Source of the DNA: Arenibacter hampyeongensis
GTDB taxonomy: Bacteria; Bacteroidota; Bacteroidia; Flavobacteriales; Flavobacteriaceae
Assembly (NCBI RefSeq): GCF_002909255.1
Contig: NZ_PIOB01000009.1
Location: 62,001 to 126,000 of the forward strand
Direction of reading: 5' to 3'
Length of the DNA stretch: 64,000 nt
Of the stretch, positions 3,367 to 63,084 are shown piece by piece (positions within the stretch are counted from its first letter, which is position 1; each line of letters begins with the position of its first letter). A program made the position numbers and the translations under genes. The notes below the pieces were generated by a model, which was not told where the DNA came from, searched no databases, and saw only the letters and a program-made list of their open reading frames with translations.

Positions 3367-4167
3367 TTAGCGACTGGTAATTTCACCTCGAGTTTCAGAA
3401 AGGTTCATTCTCATTGATATAGCTTCTGCTTCTACCCAACTATCATATTCTTTTGCCGCATTTAGTCTCTGGGAATCATCTATATAACCTTCTTCCGATA
3501 TTTGTTTTAACCCTGATACTTTACTCCAAATACCTACTTTAGACTTGAAATCCTCCCTATCCCTAGTGTAGTATTCATCAGAATTTAATGTTTCTATGTT
3601 TTTGAGTCCAATATCCTGAAATAAAGAAGGTAAATAATCAGCTATTTCATTATTCATGCCTGCATTTTCTCTCCATTTAAGAAATGCTTCATAAAAGTCA
3701 ATCATGCTTTGTGGTGGATTTGGATTCCATTGAATTTTCTTGTGATTATAATCCAATATTGATATAACACCATTGGAATTAAGTAATGATTTCATTTTTA
3801 ACAAAGCCTCTTTCGGATTGGATAACCATTGAAGCATTCTAGCAGATATTATTAGATCAAATTTCTGTTCAGGATTAAAATCAAATAGGTCTGTTGAGAT
3901 TAGCTCCAAGTTCTGTATATGCCCATAATTGGCTATTCCATTTTCTATAAAATTAGCGTCTTTATCGATACCTATTATTTTTCCGCCATTTCCAATTATA
4001 GCAGCAACGTCTTTGGAAATAGCTCCAGTCCCACAGCCCACATCAAGAACTCTGATATCCTTTCTCAATAAGGGTTTTAAAGTCCGATAATCAACTTCCA
4101 ATGATCTATTATTATATACTTCTGACCCTTCTTTGGAATCTCTCTTTACGATTTTGTTTTGTTTCAT
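3367..4167 (-). CDS. Class I SAM-dependent methyltransferase
   Basis: The 266-residue protein has the class I methyltransferase fold. Motif I is VLDVGCGTGAIS (about residues 40-51), an acidic end of strand 2 is IGIDKDANFI, and a motif IV-like segment is FDLIISARMLQWL. The substrate cannot be told; small-molecule or natural-product methyltransferases are the nearest type. The gene stands alone on the - strand between the mobilisation operon and the DUF4382 gene. Short ctaac/gttag motifs lie near both its ends (around 3340-3370 and 4182-4210), so it may be a mobile single-gene cassette. Confidence 0.8.
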   Translation of the reverse strand: MKQNKIVKRDSKEGSEVYNNRSLEVDYRTLKPLLRKDIRVLDVGCGTGAISKDVAAIIGNGGKIIGIDKDANFIENGIANYGHIQNLELISTDLFDFNPEQKFDLIISARMLQWLSNPKEALLKMKSLLNSNGVISILDYNHKKIQWNPNPPQSMIDFYEAFLKWRENAGMNNEIADYLPSLFQDIGLKNIETLNSDEYYTRDREDFKSKVGIWSKVSGLKQISEEGYIDDSQRLNAAKEYDSWVEAEAISMRMNLSETRGEITSR

Positions 4168-31198: not shown

Positions 31199-32917
31199 TG
31201 TTGCACAAGTTAGCAAAAAAGTTGGTCATGATTATTGTGGAGTGGCGGATCGATCGTAACTTTAGTTATGCAAGGAAAAAAAGTATTATCAGTAAAACTC
31301 TTCAGCTGTTTCCAGCTCAGTGAACGGGTTGCGGAGATCAATTTTTACAGACGGCTGAAGGAAATCCTCGATCTGGATTTCCTCTATCCCATGACCAGAT
31401 CTTATTAAGGATCGAGCGGCCAGAAGAGCATCGACCCCGTAGTCTTTTTTAAGCTTTGCCTGGTCGGCTATCTGGAGAACGTGACCAGCGACCGAAAGTT
31501 GGTGGATCATTGTAGTTTACGCTTGGACATCCTTTTTTTTCTGGACTATGACATAGACGAGGAACTGCCCTGGCACAGTACGATCAGCCGAACGCGCCAG
31601 TTGTTCCCGGAAGACGTGTTCGAATCGGTATTCGTCAAAGTTTTCGGCATGTGCGTCGAAAAGGGGATGGTCAGCGGACATACCCAGGGGATCGACAGTG
31701 CCCCGGTAAAGGCCAATGCCAGTATGGACAGTCTGGAACTAAAGGTCCCGGAAGCGGAACTGGGGGAGCACCTGAAAAGAATACGGCATATAAGTTCGAT
31801 GGACAAGAAAGTCCCTTTTAGGAAATCCAAGGGAAGCAGGGCGGACAAGGAACAACAAAGCATTACCGTCTCCAAAAAGGAGCTGGACTCGATTGCCTCC
31901 CGCAACAGGAAATGGGCCATGGACCAGGACCAGCGTCCGGGGGCGGGGAACAAGGGGAGCAAATACACCTCGAACAAGACGCACTATAGCCCAACAGATC
32001 CCGATGTGCGTATCAGCGTAAAACCGAGCAAGGCCAGGAAGCTCAATTATTTATCCCAGCTTGCGGTGGATACGGCAAGCCATGTGATCACCGATATCAA
32101 GGCGTACCACGCCGATGGGAAGGACAACCAACAGCTGCCCGATATCGTGAAAAGGGTACAAAGACGTTTATGGAAAGAGGGCCTTTTATGGGAAAATTGT
32201 GTGGCGGATACGGGCTATAGCAGTGGGGAGAACTATGCATTATTGGAACAGAAGGGACTTAAAAGTTTTATTCCTCCGAACGGCACGTATAGGGGAGGTC
32301 CGGAGAACTTCGTTTACGACCAAAATGAGGACCATTATGTTTGCCCACAGGGCAAGGTCATTCCGTTTACCAAGGAATTTTTGGACGGCCGTACCCAGAC
32401 CAGGAAGAAGGAATATAGGGCAAGGAAGCACATATGTACGGGCTGTCCGATCAGGGAGCAATGCCTGGGCAGGTCGGCACAGGAAAAGAAGTTCAGCGTC
32501 ACCTATTACCGGGAGGAATACCAAAGGAACATTGAAAGGGTGAACGGTCCGCAGGGAAGGTATATGAAGGGCAAACGCCAGAGTACGGTGGAGCCCGTCT
32601 TCGGGACCCTTACCCAATTTATGGAGCTAAGGAAGATCAACACATTGGGATTGGCACAGGCCAACAAGGCAATACAGCAATCGGCCATTGCCTACAACAT
32701 CAAAAAATACCTGAAATTCTCAGGAAAACGCACAAAAAGTGGGGCAGGGATGCTTGCTTTGTCGATTTTTATAAAAAAAGGGGCATTTAAGCTTAAAAGC
32801 TTGCTTCTAGGGCTTCCAAAATTACATGCAAATCCAGTAACTTAAAAAACAAAACCCAATTAAAAAGCGGTTACCAAAGCAATTGTTTTATAAATTATGG
32901 GCTTGTGCAACGGTTAC
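31194..32917 (+). mobile_element. IS1182-type insertion sequence
   Basis: An element of about 1.72 kb is bounded by imperfect inverted repeats: gtgcctgttgcacaag (31194-31209) and cttgtgcaacggttac (32902-32917), 13 of 16 matching. The exact tips are uncertain, since gttgcacaag is the surest part. It encodes one transposase. Both flanks are parts of cassette-type spacers. No clear target duplication was seen. Confidence 0.7.
31268..32845 (+). pseudogene. IS1182-family transposase with an in-frame stop
   Basis: From ATG 31268 the frame reads MQGKKVLSVKLFSCFQ ... YPMTRSY, meets TAA at 31406-31408 (codon 47), and continues in the same frame as GSSGQKSIDPVVFFK to 32845. A single base change from TAT would explain the stop. 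Downstream the protein is intact: VADTGYSSGEN for a DDE acid, the Cys cluster CTGCPIREQC, and RQSTVEPVFGTLTQFMELR for the final Glu, as in IS1182/DDE_Tnp_1 transposases. An internal GTG at 31481 could start a 454-residue product that lacks the N-terminal domain. Confidence 0.85.
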
Positions 32918-38791: not shown

Positions 38792-39403
38792 ATGATTTTT
38801 GGTTATGCCAGGGTAAGTACCAATGAACAGAATCTGGATCTGCAATTGGACGCCTTCTTAAAAGAAGGTCTTGATAAAAAGAACATTTATACGGATAAGG
38901 TTTCCAGTTCTCAAGAAGAACGTAAAAGCTTAAGCAAACTTCTGGATTATGCCCGTGAAGGGGACACGATTGTTGTTTGGAAATTGGACCGCCTGGCCAG
39001 AAGCTTGATTCATTTTACAAACTTCATCAACCAACTCAATGAAAAAGGGGTCAAGTTCCGGAGCATTACCGAACCTTTTTTGGATACCACGGACAAGTCT
39101 TCGCATTCCCAGTTCATTGTAAACATGTTCGCTGCCCTAGCACAGTTAGAACGGGATATTATCATTGAGCGAACCAAGGCCGGTTTGGCCTCTGCGAGAG
39201 CTAGGGGTAAAATATTAGGTGCACCTACGGGAATCAGCAATAAAAATCAACAAAAAGCCATAATTTGCGAACAGTACTTTAAAGAGGGTAAATTAACCGT
39301 TTCTGAAATTTGCGAGAGAGTGAATATTTCTAGGGCAACGTATTACAAGTATTTAAGGCATAGAGGGCTTACAGGAAAGTTAAGGCCATATAAAATCTTG
39401 TAG
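38792..39403 (+). CDS. Serine recombinase (resolvase/invertase family)
   Basis: The 203-residue protein has the catalytic N-terminus MIFGYARVSTNEQNLDLQLD with Ser 9 as nucleophile, the VWKLDRLARSL arginine motif, the long E helix (NMFAALAQLERDIIIERTKAGL) and a C-terminal HTH (LTVSEICERVNISRATYYKYL). It is a complete small recombinase of Tn3-resolvase/Hin type. It begins the + strand array of linker-joined small genes, so a role in rearranging this region is possible but unproven. Confidence 0.95.
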   Translation: MIFGYARVSTNEQNLDLQLDAFLKEGLDKKNIYTDKVSSSQEERKSLSKLLDYAREGDTIVVWKLDRLARSLIHFTNFINQLNEKGVKFRSITEPFLDTTDKSSHSQFIVNMFAALAQLERDIIIERTKAGLASARARGKILGAPTGISNKNQQKAIICEQYFKEGKLTVSEICERVNISRATYYKYLRHRGLTGKLRPYKIL

Positions 39404-54042: not shown

Positions 54043-54308
54043 TTAAAAAGGTCCCTTTTCCCTAGGCCCTTTACTGGTAACTTTCCACTGATCATTCTCT
54101 TTGATCAATTTGAAAATCCCAGGCTTTTTGTCAAATGAAGAATTATATTTGACCCAAGCCGTATTGTCTTCAACAGCTTCGTCTAGGATTTCAACTTTAG
54201 TACCAATTTCCTCTTCGGGCACCAAATTCTGAATCAATATCAAGCCACTATAACCATCAGAAGTAGTATACTTTTTTAAAATAGTGTTGTCTTTGGTGGA
54301 TACTTCGG
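54043..54308 (-). pseudogene. 3' part of a DUF4878-like lipoprotein gene split by IS21
   Basis: On the - strand the frame ends ..TKRTEVSTKDNTILKKY, TTSDGYSGLILIQNLVP, ..AWVKYNSSFDKKPGIFK and DQWKVTSKGPREKGPF. The closing beta strands with a WKVT end fit DUF4878/DUF4019-like small lipoproteins. No start codon belongs to it: the frame runs into the IS21 end. The missing 5' part is very likely the fragment at 62092-62223 on the other side of the nested elements. Confidence 0.7.
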
Positions 54309-54367
54309 TTCGTTTTGTGCCACTTTGAAAGATCAAGTAACAATTACCTTGTCGCCAAAAAAGCGAT

Positions 54368-55921
54368 ATGGCCAACACACTTGATCCAATGGACTTAAAA
54401 CAGATTATTTCCCTTCATCTCGATGGGTTCAGCAACCATAAGATAGGTGCCGCCTTAGGGATATCCCGTAATACGGTAAATACATATATGCGGCTGTACG
54501 GGGCCTGTGACCGCTCCCTTAAAGAATTATTGGCCCTTGACAATGGGGCCCTGGAAGCCCTCTTTCCCTCGCACACGACCATAGACAACAGGCGTTACGA
54601 CGAGCTCATGCGGTGTTTTGAGGGGGTCAACAAGGCCCGGAACCATCCCGGATTTACCTTTCTATATCATTATCAGCAGTACGTACAGCAGGCCAAAGAA
54701 CCTTATGGCTACACCCAGTTCATGGAACATTACCGGCGCAAATATGCCAAGACCAAAGGCTCGATGAAACTCGAGCACGATCCCGGAAAGGAAATGTTCA
54801 TCGACTTCGCCGGCAAGAAGCTCCATATTGTTGATAGGGACACTGGGGAAGTGGTCCCGGTGGAAGTGTTCGTGGCCATCCTGCCCAATAGCCAGTATAC
54901 CTATGTGGAGGCCTGCAGGAGCCAAAAACGGGAGGACCTGATCAGCTGTTGTACCAGTGCCCTGAACTTTTACGGGGGAGTGCCCAAGGCCATCGTCTCG
55001 GACAACCTGAAATCGGCGGTGACCAGGGCCAGCAGATATGAGGCGGACATCAACCGGAGCTTCAAGGATTTTGCACGCCATTATAACTGCGCCATAAACC
55101 CCGCCCGGGGGTATTCCCCCCAGGACAAGGCCCTGGTGGAGAACGCCGTGCACCTTGCCTACCAGCGTATCTACTACCCCTTAAGGGAAATGGTGTTCTT
55201 CTCTTTGGCAGATCTGAACCGGGAGATAAAACGCCTGTTGGAAACCTATAACGATCTATTGTTCAAGCGAAAGGAGGCCAGTCGCAGGGAATTGTTCCAA
55301 TCCGTGGAAAGGGAATACCTCAAGCCCCTGCCCGAGAGTGCGTACGAGCTAAAGGATTACCGCAGGGCCAAGGTCCAGAAGATGGGCTATGTATACTTCT
55401 CCCCGGACAAGAGCTATTATAGCGTTCCCTACCGCTATATCGGAAAAGAGACCACCATCCATTACACGGGTTCCGTTGTCGAGGTCTATTACCACCAAAA
55501 GCGGATAGCCCTGCACCGGCGCCATACGGAAAAAGGCAGCTATAATACCAACAGGGAACATCTTAGCAGCACCCATAAATATTATAGTGACTGGAGCCCG
55601 GAGTTCTTTAAAAAGAAAGCGGCCCGACACGGCGACCATGTACTGGGCTGTGTGGAGGCGATACTCGCCAAGGGGGACTATCCGGAAATAGGATATAAAC
55701 GGGCCATGGGGGTCATACAGCTCCATAAGGCATATGGCTCCGAACGTCTGGACAATGCCTGCAAAAGGGCCCTGCAGGCAGATGCCGCCACCTATATGCG
55801 GATCAGGAACATACTGAAGAACAACCTGGACAAAAGCTCCCTGTTCTACCGGGACCTCGAAGAGGACAAGAGCCATATCCCTGACCACGGGAACATACGG
55901 GGCGCCTCCGCTTACCGATAA
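54368..55921 (+). CDS. istA: IS21 transposase IstA
   Basis: The 517-residue transposase opens with an HTH (LKQIISLHLDGFSNHKIGAA, LGISRNTVNTYMRLY). The DDE catalytic core is visible as MFIDFAGKKLHI (first Asp), AIVSDNLKSAV (second Asp, after GGVPK) and QDKALVENAVHLAYQR (Glu). Length is normal for the family. It is followed by istB after 24 nt. It appears intact. Confidence 0.95.
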   Translation: MANTLDPMDLKQIISLHLDGFSNHKIGAALGISRNTVNTYMRLYGACDRSLKELLALDNGALEALFPSHTTIDNRRYDELMRCFEGVNKARNHPGFTFLYHYQQYVQQAKEPYGYTQFMEHYRRKYAKTKGSMKLEHDPGKEMFIDFAGKKLHIVDRDTGEVVPVEVFVAILPNSQYTYVEACRSQKREDLISCCTSALNFYGGVPKAIVSDNLKSAVTRASRYEADINRSFKDFARHYNCAINPARGYSPQDKALVENAVHLAYQRIYYPLREMVFFSLADLNREIKRLLETYNDLLFKRKEASRRELFQSVEREYLKPLPESAYELKDYRRAKVQKMGYVYFSPDKSYYSVPYRYIGKETTIHYTGSVVEVYYHQKRIALHRRHTEKGSYNTNREHLSSTHKYYSDWSPEFFKKKAARHGDHVLGCVEAILAKGDYPEIGYKRAMGVIQLHKAYGSERLDNACKRALQADAATYMRIRNILKNNLDKSSLFYRDLEEDKSHIPDHGNIRGASAYR

Positions 55922-55945
55922 TAAATAACTTAAATCCAATATATT

Positions 55946-56695
55946 ATGAACAATGAACAGACGATCGAAAAATTGAAACAGATGCGCCTTACGGCCATGG
56001 CCCAATTGCACCTACAGTACGTAAGGGACAACGGTGTGGCCGACATTACCGCAGATGAATACCTGGCCCTGCTCACGGACCACCAGTGGGAGGACCGCCA
56101 GAACCGGAAGATCCAACGGTTGTTGAAACAGGCGGGGTTCGCACAGTCCGCCAACCTGGCCGAGGTGAACTATGCCCAGCAACGCAACCTGGACAGGAAC
56201 ATGTTCGCCCGCCTGGGGACCTTGGATTTTATGGCCCGGAAGGAAAACATCATCCTCACCGGGGCCTCGGGAACGGGCAAAAGCTATCTGGCACAGGCAC
56301 TGGGACATCAGGCATGTATGATGGAACAAAGGGCCATATACGCCAATACGGCCAGGCTCCTTAAAAAACTGAAACTATGCAAAGTGGACGGTACCTATCT
56401 CAAGGAGCTGGACAAGATCCTGAAAACGGACCTGTTGATCCTGGACGACTTTGGACTGCAGAGTTTTGACAACCATGCCCGCGAGGCACTGATGGATATC
56501 ATCGATGACCGTTACAATAAGGCCTCGACCATCATATCCTCCCAGATACCCGTATCCGCGTGGTATGATATTATTGGGGAAAGCACCATTGCCGATGCTA
56601 TATTGGACAGGATAGTGAACTCATCGCACAGATTGGACCTAAAAGGTTATGACAACAATATGGTTATGATAATTACAATCTTACTCTTCCATTAA
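55946..56695 (+). pseudogene. istB: IS21 helper ATPase IstB, C-terminus displaced by RIT insertion
   Basis: The frame encodes most of IstB: Walker A ILTGASGTGKSYLAQ (about residues 108-122), Walker B LLILDDFGLQ, and ILDRIVNSSHRLDLKG. After LKG the frame runs into the RIT terminal repeat (YDNNMVMIITILLFH) and stops. The true end, reading GESLRKGILKND and stop, is found at 60164-60205, 3.5 kb downstream. The N-terminal ~233 residues are intact, so the chimeric protein might still work. Confidence 0.9.
56645..56668 (+). repeat. Left terminal inverted repeat of the RIT element
   Basis: 24 bp beginning ggttatgacaacaatat; its exact inverse complement lies at 60115-60138. Confidence 0.9.
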
Positions 56696-56793
56696 AGGTT
56701 CTCATTTACAGTGAATTATCATTGAACTACGCATAATGACTTTCCATAATTTTAATGTGGCATATTACAAAATCAACATTAAAAGTAAAATTT

Positions 56794-58026
56794 ATGGAAA
56801 TTCAAAAACTTATTGAACGTGGCAACCAACTTTTAAAAGAAACGAGATATTCAAGTAGTCGCATCGACACCTATAATTGGCTGTGGAAGAAAGGCATACT
56901 TGCGTACATGTTCTCAAGGGGTTTGGTTGAGTATGATGAAAATGTCGGCAATGAATTTGCGATGACATGTCATGATGGGTACAATGTTACATTCCATCAT
57001 CGGGACCTTATCAAGAGCATTGATGTGTTAACCAATGTGTTGTTAAATAACAATCTTGGTGGAAGAATGCATCGTGCAGTACAATACCCCCTTAGGGGTG
57101 AAATTGGGGACGCTGCCAATCAATATCTTGACTTCTTGAAATCCAGGCGCATAGACGAGAAGAAAACTCTCCAGCGTTACAAAAAAACAATGAGCAATTT
57201 TATTGAATATCTGTTAGGGACAGGAATAGATAATCTTTCCGAAATAACAGAAGAAGCAATAATAAAGTATATTGAAAGTCGCGAACATCAACAGAAGGAG
57301 TATATCGATACTACGAGGCGCTTCCTTTCCTTCCTCTTTCACAAAAACCTCATAACAAAGGACTATTCGTATTTGCTGAAATCAATTGGTAAGAGATTCA
57401 AGCGCGTGAAAATCCCTTCATTTTACGCTCCAGATGAAGTGCTTAAGGTAGAACAGTCGATATCTCGTTCAAGTAATGTGGGGAAACGGAACTATGCTAT
57501 GGTGTTGTTATGTTCCCGCATAGGGCTGCGTGTCTCCGACGTTGCCAATCTGAACTTCAGTAATATAGATTGGGAAAACAATAAAATAAATCTTATACAA
57601 TATAAGACTGAAAATCCGCTGACCGTTCCACTTTTACCTATCGTTGGTAATGCTATTATAGATTATCTACGCTATGCACGACCAAAATCCATGTCTGACA
57701 AGGTGTTCTTAAGCTGTCGTGCCCCGTATGAAGAGCTTAATGGGGCATCCGTTCATGGGGCTATCAGTGTTGTTTTTAAATCTTCAAAAATAGAGATCGA
57801 GAACAGGCATCACGGGGGGCATGCATTGAGGTTTAGTCTTGCACAGAGGATGTTGGATAAATCCATACCTATCCCAATTATATCAGAAACACTGGGCCAT
57901 TCAGAATTGGACTCCACAAGAAACTATGTGCGGATAGATCTATTGCATCTGCTACAATGCGTCTTGGACGTTCCGGAATCACAGGATAACTTTTACAAGC
58001 AGAAAGGAGGGTTGTTTTATGACTGA
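56794..58026 (+). CDS. ritA: Tyrosine recombinase RitA
   Basis: ATG 56794 is preferred over an upstream GTG (56755). The 410-residue recombinase has a SAM-like core-binding domain (about 90-200) and a catalytic domain with SRIGLRVSDVANLNFSNIDW (Arg), HHGGHALRFSLAQRML (His and Arg; the usual second His of the HxxRH motif is Phe) and LGHSELDSTRNYVRID (His and Tyr nucleophile). Its stop overlaps the start of ritB by 8 nt. First gene of the trio. Confidence 0.9.
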   Translation: MEIQKLIERGNQLLKETRYSSSRIDTYNWLWKKGILAYMFSRGLVEYDENVGNEFAMTCHDGYNVTFHHRDLIKSIDVLTNVLLNNNLGGRMHRAVQYPLRGEIGDAANQYLDFLKSRRIDEKKTLQRYKKTMSNFIEYLLGTGIDNLSEITEEAIIKYIESREHQQKEYIDTTRRFLSFLFHKNLITKDYSYLLKSIGKRFKRVKIPSFYAPDEVLKVEQSISRSSNVGKRNYAMVLLCSRIGLRVSDVANLNFSNIDWENNKINLIQYKTENPLTVPLLPIVGNAIIDYLRYARPKSMSDKVFLSCRAPYEELNGASVHGAISVVFKSSKIEIENRHHGGHALRFSLAQRMLDKSIPIPIISETLGHSELDSTRNYVRIDLLHLLQCVLDVPESQDNFYKQKGGLFYD

Positions 58027-59026
58027 TCCATTTGATTATCAAGGAGTACTGGCTCCCTATATGAAAGCCCTGATTCGTATAAAAGAATCCTGCGGGCAAA
58101 CTGTAATTGGGACCAAGTGGACTTACAAAGAGTTTGATGAGTTTACCATACAATATGGCTTGTCGGAACCGATCATTACGAAAGATCTGATAGGAACTTG
58201 GGCAAAGTCGAGAGAAAATGACTGTAGCAGGACGTTCTATGGAAAATGTTCCAGATTGTCGCAACTGGCTAAATACATGAAGGAGCATGGGATTAAATCA
58301 TATATCATGCCCTTGCCGAAATGTACGAATGATCGAGGTTTTATACCCTATATCTTCTCAGAAGAACAGATGCAATCCATATTCCAGGAGTCTGACAGGC
58401 TCCTGCGCCAAAGTCGCCGAAAAGACGACCCAATTATATCAGTGCCTTGTCTTATTCGGCTTTTATATAGTACGGGTCTAAGAATCACAGAAGCCATTTC
58501 ATTGAGGAACAAGGATGTGGATCTTGATAGGAACATTCTAAAAGTAGGGACATGGGGCAGTACTAAAAATGGAGAAGAACGTTTGGTTCCTATATGCAAC
58601 ACCTTAAAGGAGAATCTTCAGAAATATCTACATTACCGGAGTATGCTTCCAGTACAGGATATTACTGACCACGATCATCCGTTCTTTATCAAGTTAAATG
58701 GCGAAGCGCTTTCTTCCGCTAATGCATACCACTGGTTCAAAAAGGTATACGGGCAATGTGGGATTGCATATAAGGGTGAACGCTTTGGACCTCGTGTACA
58801 AGATCTTAGACATACCATGGCAACACATTCTCTTGCAAAAATGGTGAGAGAAGGGTTAGATATATACGCTGCCCTTCCATTGCTGTCCGCTAGTCTTGGG
58901 CACAAGTCTCTCTCATCCACTGAAGGGTATGTAAGGCTAACTTGCAGTGAATACCCTGAGCTATTGGAACAATGCTCTTCCCTGAACAATTTTATATATC
59001 CGAAAAAACATGACAACAACGAATAA
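58019..59026 (+). CDS. ritB: Tyrosine recombinase RitB
   Basis: The 335-residue protein shows YSTGLRITEAISLRNKDVDL (Arg), VQDLRHTMATHSLAK (Arg-His present; the preceding His of the motif is Gln) and LGHKSLSSTEGYVRLT (Tyr). It overlaps ritA by 8 nt and ritC by 17 nt, so the three are translationally coupled. The variant catalytic box agrees with division of labour among RIT proteins, but activity cannot be judged by eye. Confidence 0.9.
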   Translation: MTDPFDYQGVLAPYMKALIRIKESCGQTVIGTKWTYKEFDEFTIQYGLSEPIITKDLIGTWAKSRENDCSRTFYGKCSRLSQLAKYMKEHGIKSYIMPLPKCTNDRGFIPYIFSEEQMQSIFQESDRLLRQSRRKDDPIISVPCLIRLLYSTGLRITEAISLRNKDVDLDRNILKVGTWGSTKNGEERLVPICNTLKENLQKYLHYRSMLPVQDITDHDHPFFIKLNGEALSSANAYHWFKKVYGQCGIAYKGERFGPRVQDLRHTMATHSLAKMVREGLDIYAALPLLSASLGHKSLSSTEGYVRLTCSEYPELLEQCSSLNNFIYPKKHDNNE

Positions 59027-60041
59027 CTTAGCAAAATATATGACAGGCTTCCTTGGCGTATATCTCCCGCACGAACGAAATGTCAGTCCGAATACAATAT
59101 CTGCATACCGCGATTCTTTTGTCTCCTTCTTTTCCTACTTGAGAGATGAAAAGCAAATAAAAATTGAAAATGCAGCATTGTCAGACATTAACAGAGATAA
59201 CGTGCTTGGATATCTTCGATGGCTGATCGATAAGCAAGGAAATAGCATCGCCACCCGAAATAGTAGGTTAGCGGCTATCCGTTCCTTTGTATCATATCTT
59301 CAGTATGAAACCATAGAGCATCTTGAACAGTGGCAAAGAATAATGGCAATCAAGAACCTAAAAAAACAACATCCAACTCCAGCACACTTCACAAAGGAAG
59401 GGATAAAGCTACTACTGGAACAACCAGATAGTACATGTTATAAGGAGTTAAGGCATCTAGCGATACTCGCGTTGATGTATGATACAGGTTGTAGGGTACA
59501 GGAACTGGTCGACCTAACGGTAGAGTCATTAAGAATCCAGTATAGGCCATACTCAATCCGGGTATATGGAAAAGGGAGAAAAGTGAGGATAGTACCTCTT
59601 TCTGAACATGTTGTTGCAATACTCAAGGAGTATATGAATAGACATAACATTGATTATGAGCTGAATATAAAAAAACCTGTATTCTGTAATAGCGCGGGAA
59701 ATAAACTCACCAGAGCTGGAATAAGTTACATTTTAAAAAAATATGCAGATATGGCTCGTGTATGTAATTCTAATATGATCCCTGAAATAATTAGTTGCCA
59801 TCAGCTTAGACACAGCCGGGCTATGCATCTGTTGCAATCTGGAGTAAATCTAATTTGGATAAGAGACTTGCTGGGACATACTTCTATCCAGACTACAGAG
59901 GTATACGCAAGGGCCGATTCAAAACAGAAAAGAGAAGCAATAGAACAAGCATCAGAATGCCTTACACCTAGTATGATAACAGGAGAATGGATAGATAACA
60001 AGAACCTGATAACTTGGCTGAAAGGGTTGGGTAAGGTATAA
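59010..60041 (+). CDS. ritC: Tyrosine recombinase RitC
   Basis: The 343-residue recombinase has an N-terminal SAM-like domain (MTGFLGVYLPHERNVSPNTI...) and a full catalytic set: YDTGCRVQELVDLTVES (Arg), VYGKGRKVRIVPLS (Lys), ISCHQLRHSRAMHLLQSG (HxLRH) and LGHTSIQTTEVYARAD (His, Tyr). It is the only one of the trio with an unaltered catalytic set, and so the likeliest main nuclease. Confidence 0.92.
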   Translation: MTTTNNLAKYMTGFLGVYLPHERNVSPNTISAYRDSFVSFFSYLRDEKQIKIENAALSDINRDNVLGYLRWLIDKQGNSIATRNSRLAAIRSFVSYLQYETIEHLEQWQRIMAIKNLKKQHPTPAHFTKEGIKLLLEQPDSTCYKELRHLAILALMYDTGCRVQELVDLTVESLRIQYRPYSIRVYGKGRKVRIVPLSEHVVAILKEYMNRHNIDYELNIKKPVFCNSAGNKLTRAGISYILKKYADMARVCNSNMIPEIISCHQLRHSRAMHLLQSGVNLIWIRDLLGHTSIQTTEVYARADSKQKREAIEQASECLTPSMITGEWIDNKNLITWLKGLGKV

Positions 60042-60162
60042 TTATTATGTAAAGTCCAAATGTAAAGTTGTAACGTAATATGCTAAAGTTCAACACGCTT
60101 TACATCGGGCTTTACATAACCATATTGTTGTCATAACCCTTTTTATGTAAAGCTATCCATAA
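60042..60162. promoter_or_regulatory. Repeat-rich right end of the RIT element
   Basis: The motif atgtaaag occurs at about 60049, 60060 and 60145, and its inverse ctttacat at about 60098 and 60110, around the right terminal repeat. Such clustered direct and inverted copies are likely recombinase arm or core binding sites. Confidence 0.5.
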
Positions 60163-60278
60163 AAAAGGGGAAAGCTTAAGAAAAGGAATTTTAAAAAACG
60201 ACTAACACATTTTTTTTGTATAATTGAAAGATCTTTCAAAGTGGCACTGTTTGACCGAAACAGGTGGCACCATCACTC

Positions 60279-62089
60279 GGTTCTTCCTCATATTTGGGGA
60301 AACATCAACCAGTTTGAGATAATATCACTTTTTTGCGCAATAGATCAAAGCTGGCCCTACCATACATTTGTCTTTTTATACTCTTTATCCGGTTTACATG
60401 GCCTTCCACAGCACCATTGCTCCAGGACATGTTAATCCCGTTTTTAACAGCTTTAATATCCCTTAATAGACCATTGGCAAAATTGATCAAACCTGGCATC
60501 TTGTATTTTGAGCGTTTTATAAATCCGATCCATCGGTTTATATTACCGCGTCCTCTTTTTAACATCGTTTTGAAAATCTGCACCAATTTTCGAACGACCT
60601 GTAGTTCTGAGATATTATCCAATAGTGTTTGCAGATAATTTCGTTCATCGGGATCCTTGATAACAGTTAAACAAGAGCCAATATATTTAGCCAGCGTCCT
60701 TGAGCTCAAGGGCTTTATATAGGGGATTCTTGATTTTTGAATTTGGGCGAAATCAGGTGTGTGTATTTCAAATTTTTCCTTTATGCTATTTATATTATGG
60801 TAGGCCTGGGTTCTACTTCCGTTGTATCCTAATTTATAGATCTCGTCTATTATATCTTTCATCATATATCCTTTGTCATTTAATCGAGCAACAATGTGCT
60901 GGGCAAATAATTCAATATTGGTTGATTTAGAGCTTATTCTGGGAGGTAATGATTCTAGTGGGAAATATGAATGAACTGTATTGCGGCTTATGCCCAGATC
61001 CCTTGCTATCTTTCGTTTGGATATGCCCTTGGCCTGTAATTCCTTGACCTTATTGAAGACATCCAACCTTTGGTCTCTTCTAATTTCAACTATTTCCTGG
61101 ACTTTTGATAATAATCGTGACCTTTTTCCTTTGTCACAGCCTGCATTCTGGCCATCCGACATATTTAAAAGCTCATTGCCCTTATCCTTAATAAGCTTTC
61201 TGATTTTTGGATTCACACTTTTGAAATACTTGTCCAAGGCATCGGATAGGTTCATTAATAAATGGAATCGATCCGCGACCTGTTCTGCATCAGGACAAAC
61301 CTCATTGATAGCAGAAGAATACGAACTGGCCCTGTCCCTGGTTACAATTTTCACATCAGGATATTTTGACAGCCACTTTTTTAGCTCTTTGCCCTCCCTG
61401 GAAGGTAAGATATCAATAGGCCTTGAAGTCTCCATATCAATGAGAATGGTTCCATAACTTATCCCTTTTCGGTATGCAAAATCATCAACGCCAAGCACCT
61501 TTGGTTGTATTATCGGGGGTAGTCGTTGTCTGTGGACTATTCGTGTAATGGTCGAGCTGCTAACCGAAATCAGTAGTTGTCCAGATAGTATACTGCCCAA
61601 TTTTCCTGTTAATTCAATTGACAAGGAATCAAGAATCCTTGATACCCTTTTTGTTCTTCTTGAATACCTCAAAATATATGGTGTTTGTTCTGAGAATACT
61701 TTTCGGTCACATTGCGGGTTTTGGCATTTGAATTTGCGTGTCTTTAGGATAATAGTGGTTTTGTTTTGAAATACCGGAAGATCTGATATTGTTCGGGTAT
61801 AACGATCATGGACTTTATTGCTATATTTTTCACATTTCGGACACTTTGACCGCTTGGCTTTTATTGATGCGTATATTTTAACAATGGAGCAAGAATAATC
61901 AATATTATTTACAATCAGCACAGGCATGCCAATCAGTTGTTTTATGGTCATAAGTAGTTGTCAGATAACTACTTAAAGATAATAAATATCGTCCTGTAAA
62001 ACAAGGGAATACGACTTTATATCTTTGATTATCAACATTTTACAGCAATCCTCAATGTTTGGAAATTTCCCCAAATATGAGGAAGAACC
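60279..62089 (-). mobile_element. ISL3-family insertion sequence with 8-bp target duplication
   Basis: The terminal inverted repeat is ggttcttcctcatatttggg (from 60279), matched inversely up to 62089. The target duplication catcactc is present at 60271-60278 and 62090-62097. The 1811-bp element carries one transposase. Removing it joins the IS21 right end to the lipoprotein fragment, so it inserted after IS21. A short hairpin agtagtt...aactact (61953-61973) lies just before the transposase start. Confidence 0.93.
60305..61951 (-). CDS. ISL3-family transposase
   Basis: The 548-residue transposase starts MTIKQLIGMPVLIVNNIDYS and has the N-terminal zinc-ribbon CPKCEKYSNKVHDRYTRTI and CQNPQCDRKVFSEQ, then VLGVDDFAYRKGISYGTIL (catalytic Asp), KIVTRDRASSYSSAINEVCP (second Asp) and WSNGAVEGHVNRIKSIKR (Glu) near the end. 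It is full length with no break. Confidence 0.95.
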   Translation of the reverse strand: MTIKQLIGMPVLIVNNIDYSCSIVKIYASIKAKRSKCPKCEKYSNKVHDRYTRTISDLPVFQNKTTIILKTRKFKCQNPQCDRKVFSEQTPYILRYSRRTKRVSRILDSLSIELTGKLGSILSGQLLISVSSSTITRIVHRQRLPPIIQPKVLGVDDFAYRKGISYGTILIDMETSRPIDILPSREGKELKKWLSKYPDVKIVTRDRASSYSSAINEVCPDAEQVADRFHLLMNLSDALDKYFKSVNPKIRKLIKDKGNELLNMSDGQNAGCDKGKRSRLLSKVQEIVEIRRDQRLDVFNKVKELQAKGISKRKIARDLGISRNTVHSYFPLESLPPRISSKSTNIELFAQHIVARLNDKGYMMKDIIDEIYKLGYNGSRTQAYHNINSIKEKFEIHTPDFAQIQKSRIPYIKPLSSRTLAKYIGSCLTVIKDPDERNYLQTLLDNISELQVVRKLVQIFKTMLKRGRGNINRWIGFIKRSKYKMPGLINFANGLLRDIKAVKNGINMSWSNGAVEGHVNRIKSIKRQMYGRASFDLLRKKVILSQTG

Positions 62090-62091
62090 CA

Positions 62092-62223
62092 TCACTCCGA
62101 AATAGCCACTTTGGCGTAGAAACTTTCTACAACTATCTTGGCTGTTTCTGTATGCCATAGATCTTGTTTATTAGAACATGCAATCAGCAAGAATGCCAGT
62201 ATGGAAGTGATCAGTGCTTTCAT
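62092..62223 (-). pseudogene. 5' part of a DUF4878-like lipoprotein gene split by nested IS elements
   Basis: ATG at 62223 (6 nt after traN) reads a lipoprotein signal MKALITSILAFLLIAC, then SNKQDLWHTETAKIVVESF and YAKVAISE, and stops at a TGA (62092-62094) formed at the element junction. VVESFYAKVA matches the start of DUF4878-like domains. The 3' part lies at 54043-54308, 7.8 kb away. Whether any bases were lost between the halves cannot be told. Confidence 0.75.
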
Positions 62224-62229
62224 AATATT

Positions 62230-63084
62230 TTAATTTGGGTTATTGATATATCTATGCGAGACTTTTAACTCCAAATTTCGTTCTCCTTTCCTTTCATTCA
62301 ATTCAAGGACAGCGATGCGGTCATCACTCAAAGAGAATTTGGGAACGACGTAAACCAATCTTGCCGTTTCGTTTTTCTTGATTCTTGAAGGCAGGTTGTG
62401 TTTAAACATGGGTTTCAAGTATAGTTTCTGTAAAGATTTCCTTTTTCCCTTCTGTCTTGTTTCAACCGAGAGTTTTAAGAAATTTAAATCGTAATCCAAA
62501 GTAGATTTGTTTTCAATCTGGATAACGAAATAGAGTTCTTCGGTATCAAAAACAATATTTTCAACACTTAAAAGGATATCTTCGCTACCCTTTTTTAACC
62601 GATCTATTTTCTGCTTTTGGTTGAGAAGGTATGCGCAAATTTTCTTGTAATAAAACGTTTTGTTGTCAATGGTATCCACAAGCGAATCTTTACTGGGAAT
62701 TACTGGTGTCAGAGGCTTTTCATTGCCTATACTACTGGAATCCGTTATAAAATAATTCAGCTTGGAAAGCTCCTTTTTATACCTTACAATATACGAAAAA
62801 ATAGAACCATTTCTATTGACTACTAGCAAGTTACTTTCCTTTCCGGGCTTTGCCTGTAGCAAACCGAAATATTGTTCTTTTTCCCGATTGTAGGTAAAGA
62901 TGAAGTTATCGGACCCAGTAATTCCTTGGCGAATGGGATCGGGAAAAAAGAGTGCCACATTCTTATGGTCATTAGCGTAAATAGTATCCAATGCTATTGA
63001 CTGTTGCGCAGGGGCCTGTGCCGAGCAAAGTTGAAGTACAAAAGCGGAAATTAGTAGAGTAGGTATTAAAATAAATGTTCTCAT
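62230..63084 (-). CDS. traN: Conjugative transfer protein TraN (DUF4138, VirB9-like)
   Basis: The 284-residue protein has a signal peptide (..LQLCSAQAPAQ) and a DUF4138 body: SIALDTIYANDHKNVALFFPDPI (the TraN N-terminal motif with A.......LFFP.PI), FIFTYNREKEQYFGLLQAKPG, and TARLVYVVPKFSLSDDRIAVLELNE at the end. TraN is the VirB9-like part of the outer-membrane core complex of Bacteroidota type IV secretion. It overlaps traM by 4 nt. Confidence 0.93.
   Translation of the reverse strand: MRTFILIPTLLISAFVLQLCSAQAPAQQSIALDTIYANDHKNVALFFPDPIRQGITGSDNFIFTYNREKEQYFGLLQAKPGKESNLLVVNRNGSIFSYIVRYKKELSKLNYFITDSSSIGNEKPLTPVIPSKDSLVDTIDNKTFYYKKICAYLLNQKQKIDRLKKGSEDILLSVENIVFDTEELYFVIQIENKSTLDYDLNFLKLSVETRQKGKRKSLQKLYLKPMFKHNLPSRIKKNETARLVYVVPKFSLSDDRIAVLELNERKGERNLELKVSHRYINNPN

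Follow-up and report, generated by a model that had tools for sequence, protein, structure and literature searches.

RIT elements, known since about 2009, consist of three adjacent, overlapping tyrosine recombinase genes within about 3.5 kb (PMC3414803, PMC2864759), where the gene overlaps are given as 4-8 bp and the ends are formed by a 28-29 bp inverted repeat with an "overlapping palindromic sequence" (PMC3414803). RitA has two CB domains and RitC an extra C-terminal helix (PMC8138268). Some targets of these elements have been reported earlier, namely radC in two species (C. metallidurans and B. petrii) and the tnpA gene of IS66 (PMC2864759, Janssen et al. 2010), as well as a Tn6049-related transposase gene (PMC3414803, Van Houdt et al. 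2012). In the parts of PMC3414803 covered here, mobility is undemonstrated, the ends are unexplained and the features are said not to fit the usual recombinase sites. Here we describe a RIT element in a stretch of 64,000 nucleotides from Arenibacter hampyeongensis (contig NZ_PIOB01000009.1, positions 62,001 to 126,000; hereafter the window), where it interrupts the istB gene of an IS21 element that in turn splits a lipoprotein gene. The published elements have the same gene trio, size, inverted repeat and palindrome as the window RIT, but the covered parts of PMC3414803 and PMC2864759 contain no istB target, codon-level sites, link between target and clade, 6-bp cores or two-site reading. The RIT literature covered gave no account of an istB target, of the cores or of a two-site form; Ricker et al. 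(2013) lies outside this coverage and may mention them.

We consider it probable that the window RIT is a site-specific element whose lineage targets a 6-bp core in the Leu-Lys-Gly codons close to the istB 3' end, together with a lipoprotein gene split by IS21, a later ISL3 insertion and movement of the RIT as a circle. The features of the RIT and of the interrupted gene are as follows, with the strand given where there is one:

55946..56695, + strand, istB, cut after L-K-G (NCBIfam IS21_help_AAA 221 bits, cut-off 200; Pfam IstB_IS21 2-226/238)
56641..56646, left 6-bp core Z, AAAAGG (Leu wobble base, Lys and first two Gly bases)
56647..60136, + strand, RIT between the outer edges of its inverted repeats
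56755..58026, + strand, ritA, tyrosine recombinase
58019..59026, + strand, ritB, tyrosine recombinase, with Q for H in the HxLRH box
59010..60041, + strand, ritC, tyrosine recombinase
60137..60142, inner core X, CCCTTT (AAAGGG on the opposite strand, for Leu-Lys-Gly with AAG as the Lys codon)
60143..60162, 20-bp imperfect palindrome TTATGTAAAGCTATCCATAA
60163..60168, right 6-bp core Y, AAAAGG
60167..60202, + strand, detached istB 3' end, GESLRKGILKND

The inverted repeats of the RIT were found at 56641-56668 and 60115-60142, and the right repeat is followed by a 6-bp core, the 20-bp palindrome and a second 6-bp core. The three rit genes are contiguous with overlaps of 8 and 17 bp, and relatives of all three occur elsewhere in conserved order. 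An LGH.....T..Y box is present in RitA, RitB and RitC and an HxLR box in RitA and RitC, so that three recombinase genes, catalytic boxes and an inverted repeat of about 28 bp plus a palindrome place the element among the RITs. The residue at the HxLRH box of RitB was observed to be Gln in the window and in the Salegentibacter lacus RIT (L094; loci in other genomes are designated by L numbers) but His in L095, L096 and L097.

A preliminary description of the window had placed the cut in istB after LKG, with the tail GESLRKGILKND resuming at 60167, and both points were confirmed. It had also suggested a check against copies of IS21 that are free of a RIT, and istB was found to be continuous at the site in L068, L069, L076 and L065. 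The interrupted istB frame is 249 residues long, a RIT-encoded tail, YDNNMVMIITILLFH, replacing the last 12 residues, and the intact IstB of L068 has 246 residues (stop-to-stop frame). The truncated IstB still scores above the cut-off of the IstB model. Since insertions of the window's clade remove only the last residues of IstB and supply a substitute tail, our guess is that the IS21 may stay active with the tailed IstB and carry the RIT along. By comparison, insertions at the P-loop terminate IstB at the nucleotide-binding motif.

Relatives of the element were collected by scanning genome contigs with a RitC alignment, where the best 80 of 190 relatives were kept, and the interrupted genes were identified with Pfam. 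Pieces of istB were found by tblastn beside RITs at two places in the IstB protein. The C-terminal site lies at position 226 of the IstB_IS21 profile in the window, in L095#1 and in L096 and at 225 in L098, and the P-loop site lies at positions 102-104 in L095#2, L125, L130, L146, L148, L161 and L173. Other genes are cut at recurring positions as well: matches to DDE_Tnp_IS66 end at 268/284 in L147, L150, L155, L157 and L167 (an IS66 C-terminal element also adjoins the RITs of L116 and L122), RadC is cut at 69/70 in L118, L144, L151 and L158, rve matches end at 102 in L109 and L110 and at 99 in L154, and DDE_Tnp_1 is cut at 165 in L100 and on both sides of L101. AbiEii, TopB (Toprim), SSB, resolvase and helicase targets were each observed in single or few cases, with the AbiEii match of L160 slightly under the cut-off. 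The Pfam scan left out L105, L117 and L166, and no Pfam family was found in the pieces of L103, L106, L107, L129, L165 and L170. The labels of L108, L114 and L169 were given by eye only, the scanned piece of L169 being the other flank, which has no family, and the IstA label of L109 is our own reading because Pfam gives only rve at the cut-off, with an IstB-like gene beside it. In L095:4000-13500 we noticed a single Chryseobacterium istB with insertions at both sites: one RIT lies at the P-loop codons and a second, different RIT at the Leu-Lys-Gly codons.

It is very improbable that RITs insert unselectively and are merely tolerated in plentiful and dispensable transposase genes. Mobile-element genes do form most of the identified targets, as such tolerance would have it, but the same profile positions recur (seven elements at IstB 102-104, four at IstB 225/226, five at IS66 268 and four at RadC 69/70, in addition to DDE_Tnp_1 165) and the target class follows the RitC tree.

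In this tree of 39 rows, the clade of istB C-terminal insertions (5 rows, support 100/100) contains both RIT orientations, and the istB P-loop (7 rows, 100/98), RadC (6 rows, 100/100) and rve "KG" (3 rows, 100/97) insertions form clades of their own. On the tree, one change suffices for each of the five main classes, and all eight target groups together need 7 changes, which is the minimum and compares with a mean of 24.1 after shuffling. Forcing both istB classes into one group was rejected (p-AU 5e-5). The preliminary description had treated the RIT as one more chance layer in the nest; the recurrent codon site and the RitC tree point instead to a target that is specific to the lineage.

The same recurrence might have arisen by common descent if a RIT entered istB once and the loaded IS21 then spread as a unit, which we regard as unlikely. 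The copies in the window, S. lacus and L095 do share closely related IS21s, the right end of the S. lacus IS21 matches that of the window, and the identities between L095 and the window are similar for IstB (74%) and RitC (79%). Against such descent, IstB is far more diverged than RitC in two other loci: L096 and the window are 75% identical in RitC but 35% in IstB, and L098 and the window 84% in RitC but 53% in IstB over 51 residues, which argues that these genes were not co-inherited. The inner cores also vary at synonymous positions, and both RIT orientations exist, even within S. lacus. The RIT of that genome is 92% identical to the window RIT over 3.5 kb and takes up an entire contig, which is collapsed. 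Two further S. lacus contigs that end in this RIT were found by pattern search, one joined at the ritC end and the other at the ritA end, and both run into an istB tail and an IS21 right end (3' side only). If these overlaps can be trusted, two istB genes of S. lacus bear the RIT, one in each orientation.

The anatomy of the ends was compared in 55 elements (54 and the window) with an inverted-repeat score of at least 19, elements of lower score being dropped. Forty of the 55 show the order host, core, inverted repeat, RIT, inverted repeat, inner core, 20-bp palindrome, core and host, with cores of 6 bp. The palindrome was called by script in 37/55, at exactly 6 bp from the repeat in 36 and at 7 in L123, and L129, L138 and L139 have palindromes recognized by eye. 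Within each class the palindrome lies on a constant side of the target, in all 28 placed members of the six classes with at least two such members (istB 11, IS66 5, RadC 5, rve 3, AbiEii 2 and TopB 2), but the RIT itself varies in orientation relative to the target, with five same and six opposite cases in istB. The elements L116, L122 and L161 are mirror cases with 3' target halves and a palindrome on both sides. Together with L101, L103, L158 and L181, where 5' target halves lie on both sides and there is no palindrome, these mirror loci look as if two RIT-bearing targets had recombined.

Among plasmids, five of the 25 tblastn matches listed were opened (L178-L182), and L179 and L182 gave no readable anatomy. 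The locus in a Rhodococcus plasmid (L180, NZ_CP070614.1) has the full anatomy with perfect ACCACC cores and the palindrome TTATGTTCAGCTGAACATAA, and its target is a gene annotated as a group II intron maturase. In the betaproteobacterial Mycetohabitans (L181, NZ_CP062170.1), the RIT lies between two head-to-head IS21s as a mirror case, and istB is cut at the Walker B Leu-Asp codons, which form a third istB site. To the eye, the plasmid locus L178 seems to have this anatomy too. No relative was found in the viral contigs scanned with RitC. A search with RitB matched general tyrosine recombinases in 394/397 family genomes, and only L035, L036 and L037 exceed this background among the matches listed.

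The core sequences were tallied in 33 non-mirror elements, leaving out L115 (no left flank) and the mirrors L116, L122 and L161. In the window, both outer cores Z and Y are AAAAGG and the inner core reads AAAGGG, with the Lys codon AAG in place of AAA. Related variations were observed in L095#1 (outer AAAAGG, inner TAAAGG), L096 (outer GAAAGG, inner CAAAGG) and L174/L175 (inner CAAAGG, outer CAAAGG and GAAAGG). The outer cores Z and Y are identical in 14/33 elements and differ in 19/33. Inner cores differ from their own outer cores by 0.91 mismatches compared with 3.76 after shuffling, and within classes by 0.82 compared with 1.70 for class mates (0/5000 shuffles as low in either comparison), counting related elements as independent. 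In 21/25 elements of the five main classes, the inner core encodes the site residue known from other loci, where 4.8 are expected (leave-one-out). Read in the frame of the target, the inner core for the most part spells the target motif and may be a memory of an earlier target.

The inner core could instead be a recognition sequence that is fixed and has to match the target, which we judge less likely but a serious alternative. The last two core bases are constant within each assigned class, and inner cores are closer to their own outer cores than to those of class mates, both of which favour a fixed sequence. It is harder to reconcile with the frequent differences between inner and outer cores, since the reverse complement of the inner core is identical to Z or Y in no more than 15/33 elements and the changes mostly keep the encoded residue.

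A double-site mechanism can be proposed for movement of the RIT. The moving form would be a circle with the 20-bp palindrome between two crossover sites of 6 bp, which are inverted relative to each other and each lie between half-sites of about 10 bp. The RIT recombinases would exchange strands between either site and the core of the target, so that either site could integrate, and the cores would be carried along from earlier targets like the coupling sequences of some conjugative transposons. The free orientation of the RIT would follow from this double inverted attachment site around the palindrome. The two informative within-genome pairs are those of S. lacus and Parabacteroides gordonii, the latter having two topB genes that bear RITs identical at 3509/3509 positions. 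In both pairs the imperfect palindrome switches side but stays on the same strand with respect to ritA-ritC, which fits the prediction of a two-site circle and not an inversion in place.

Two other origins were considered and rejected. Inversion of the RIT in place between the inverted cores was set aside as the source of its orientations because in neither pair does the palindrome change strand with respect to these genes, and creation of the palindrome anew at each insertion was set aside because its halves have diverged in several elements.

Several observations weigh against the site-specific, double-site reading. No movement, circle or excised site was observed. The palindrome is absent in 15/55 elements; nine of these end at a contig edge and three (L101, L103 and L158) have 5' target halves on both sides, but L100, L106 and L160 have their flanks and no palindrome. 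All three cores are equal in only 6/33 elements and all different in 10/33, and the relatedness of the elements bears on every core statistic. The site in L098 is Leu-Gln-Gly and not Leu-Lys-Gly. On the RitC tree the IS66 clade has weak support (74/33), AbiEii targets need two changes and do not form one clade, and three loci with SSB (L137), helicase (L162) and resolvase (L136) targets are placed inside or next to clades that have different targets, which means that target switches happen. The S. lacus RIT contig is collapsed, so its copies are tied to their flanks by overlap only.

A wider proposal, to which we give slightly less than an even chance, is that RITs are motif-homing parasites of mobile elements with one conserved-motif codon site per lineage and a double-site circle, that their cores record earlier targets of the same kind, and that the window lineage may ride nearly harmlessly on IS21. 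The proposed lineage sites, put forward with the same reserve, are the istB P-loop, the istB Leu-Lys-Gly codons, Ala-Leu-Gly in IS66, RadC before HNHPSG and the end of the rve domain. A similar preference for the most conserved codons of host genes is shown by inteins and group II introns, which splice out of the product. RITs differ from them in that they are not spliced out and the host gene is cut or given a new tail. Tn554 resembles RITs in its tyrosine recombinases and its site in radC, but it has two recombinases plus TnpC. Tn916 and CTnDOT carry short heterologous crossover (coupling) sequences from an earlier target; their circle has one attachment site, whereas the proposed RIT circle would have two inverted sites around a palindrome. 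In SE elements and GInts several tyrosine recombinases likewise act together, and 6 bp of the left flank are retained in SE circles (PMC10214605). They differ in an extra small protein (Srap/GinD) and cargo, and the covered parts of that account describe no 20-bp palindrome between two cores (PMC10214605).

The proposed anatomy predicts which codons are targeted, at which bases crossover takes place and the exact junction of the circle, which makes the mobility of RITs testable and gives a concrete picture of target choice and movement for these little-studied elements. If the target class is inherited along RIT lineages, they would offer a natural set of tyrosine recombinases with graded specificity and a record of past targets. 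On the reading given here, the seemingly accidental nest in the window reduces to one specific interaction, the RIT in istB, and one ordinary ISL3 insertion. The remaining features of this nest are:

54043..54290, - strand, lipoprotein 3' part (outside the duplication), stop at 54043
54291..54296, left IS21 target duplication, CTTTGG
54297..62108, + strand, IS21 including RIT and ISL3 (from the duplication, the empty site and the same right end in ISL3-free relatives)
54317..54334, left internal terminal repeat, 18-bp arm, perfect inverted pair with 60230..60247
54368..55921, + strand, istA, IS21 transposase (NCBIfam transpos_IS21 232 bits, cut-off 160)
60230..60247, right internal terminal repeat, 18-bp arm, perfect inverted pair with 54317..54334
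60271..60278, left ISL3 target duplication, CATCACTC, 8 bp
60279..62089, - strand, ISL3 with 24-bp perfect inverted repeats at 60279-60302 and 62066-62089, one copy in the genome
60305-61951, ISL3 transposase (transpos_ISL3 310 bits, cut-off 180)
62090..62097, right ISL3 target duplication, CATCACTC (IS21 sequence)
62098..62108, last 11 bp of the IS21 right end, severed by ISL3
62109..62114, right IS21 target duplication, CTTTGG
62115..62223, - strand, lipoprotein 5' part (outside the duplication), ATG at 62223, reading ...TETAKIVVESFYAK like intact homologues

The stretch 54297-62108 is an insertion that interrupts the lipoprotein gene and has the 6-bp duplication CTTTGG on both flanks. Target duplications of IS21 elements are 4-8 bp long, and the window's duplication was verified against the empty site; with the istA and istB pair and the terminal and internal repeats, the element belongs to the IS21 family. 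When the flanks are joined with one copy of CTTTGG, a single frame results that runs from MKALITS...SETAK, of a lipoprotein type, to ...REKGPF and aligns with intact homologues over its full length, which argues against a chance frame. With the 3' piece as query, matches were found in 38/249 family genomes, and the frame is uninterrupted across the junction in 24/30 loci read; the other six are the window, the frameshifted L005 and four in which the script chose a different frame. In L005, which belongs to the same genus, both halves are contiguous in the DNA and form an empty site. The uninterrupted copy at L005:1300-1900 bears a frameshift of its own, unrelated to the insertion.

The intact homologues and this same-genus empty site identify the two pieces as one gene. 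The split reported in the preliminary description, with ATG at 62223 and the stop at 54043 flanking the insertion, is thus upheld, and the case of two different genes that it had raised is excluded by the empty site and the 24 intact homologues. The lipoprotein gene, which lies between a TraN-like gene (62230-63084; E 1.8e-35 and 122 bits against the TraN model, under the cut-off of 164) and unrelated genes, is split by one IS21 transposition as far as the comparison of sequences goes.

The nesting of RIT and ISL3 in IS21 and of IS21 in the lipoprotein gene is real, although the outer edges had been put in the wrong place. The 18-bp perfect inverted arms at 54317 and 60230 exist but are internal repeats; the true ends, which are TGGNTANTTCGG-like, begin with TGGATACTTCGG... 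at 54297 and finish with ...CGAAATAGCCA at 62108. The sequence TCACTCCGAAATAGCCA closes the right end in the ISL3-free relatives L068, L069 and L076, three of the seven relatives inspected at the istB side, the remaining four having the wrong end displayed, a contig edge or no such end. Both S. lacus IS21 copies (L174 and L175) carry the same right end with TCACTCCGAAATAGCCA. Since the right end of ISL3-free copies contains TCACTCCGAAATAGCCA, the duplicated CATCACTC is IS21 sequence and ISL3 lies within the right end of IS21, not at the edge between IS21 and the lipoprotein gene where it had been located; the duplication itself was as described.

ISL3 elements generate an 8-bp target duplication, and the element in the window has this together with a family transposase and inverted repeats. 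IS21 arrived after the lipoprotein gene, to judge from the arrangement. Because ISL3 splits the terminal IS21 end that bears the CTTTGG duplication, it probably entered after the IS21 insertion, assuming that an IS21 with a split end cannot transpose. The order of events had been called directly readable; nesting shows containment, and the RIT insertion in istB may be older or younger than the IS21 jump and than ISL3. In the window's own genome, IS21 with its RIT and ISL3 each occur as one full-length copy, and no RIT-free twin was found there. That the nest is an artefact of assembly is hardly credible: repeats do break assemblies and the analysis was made without reads, but the nest lies within a contig of 194,712 bp, both elements are single full-length copies and both duplications are intact. 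Elsewhere in the window, the frames 31481-32845 and 38792-39403 resemble by eye an IS1182/IS5-type transposase and a serine resolvase.

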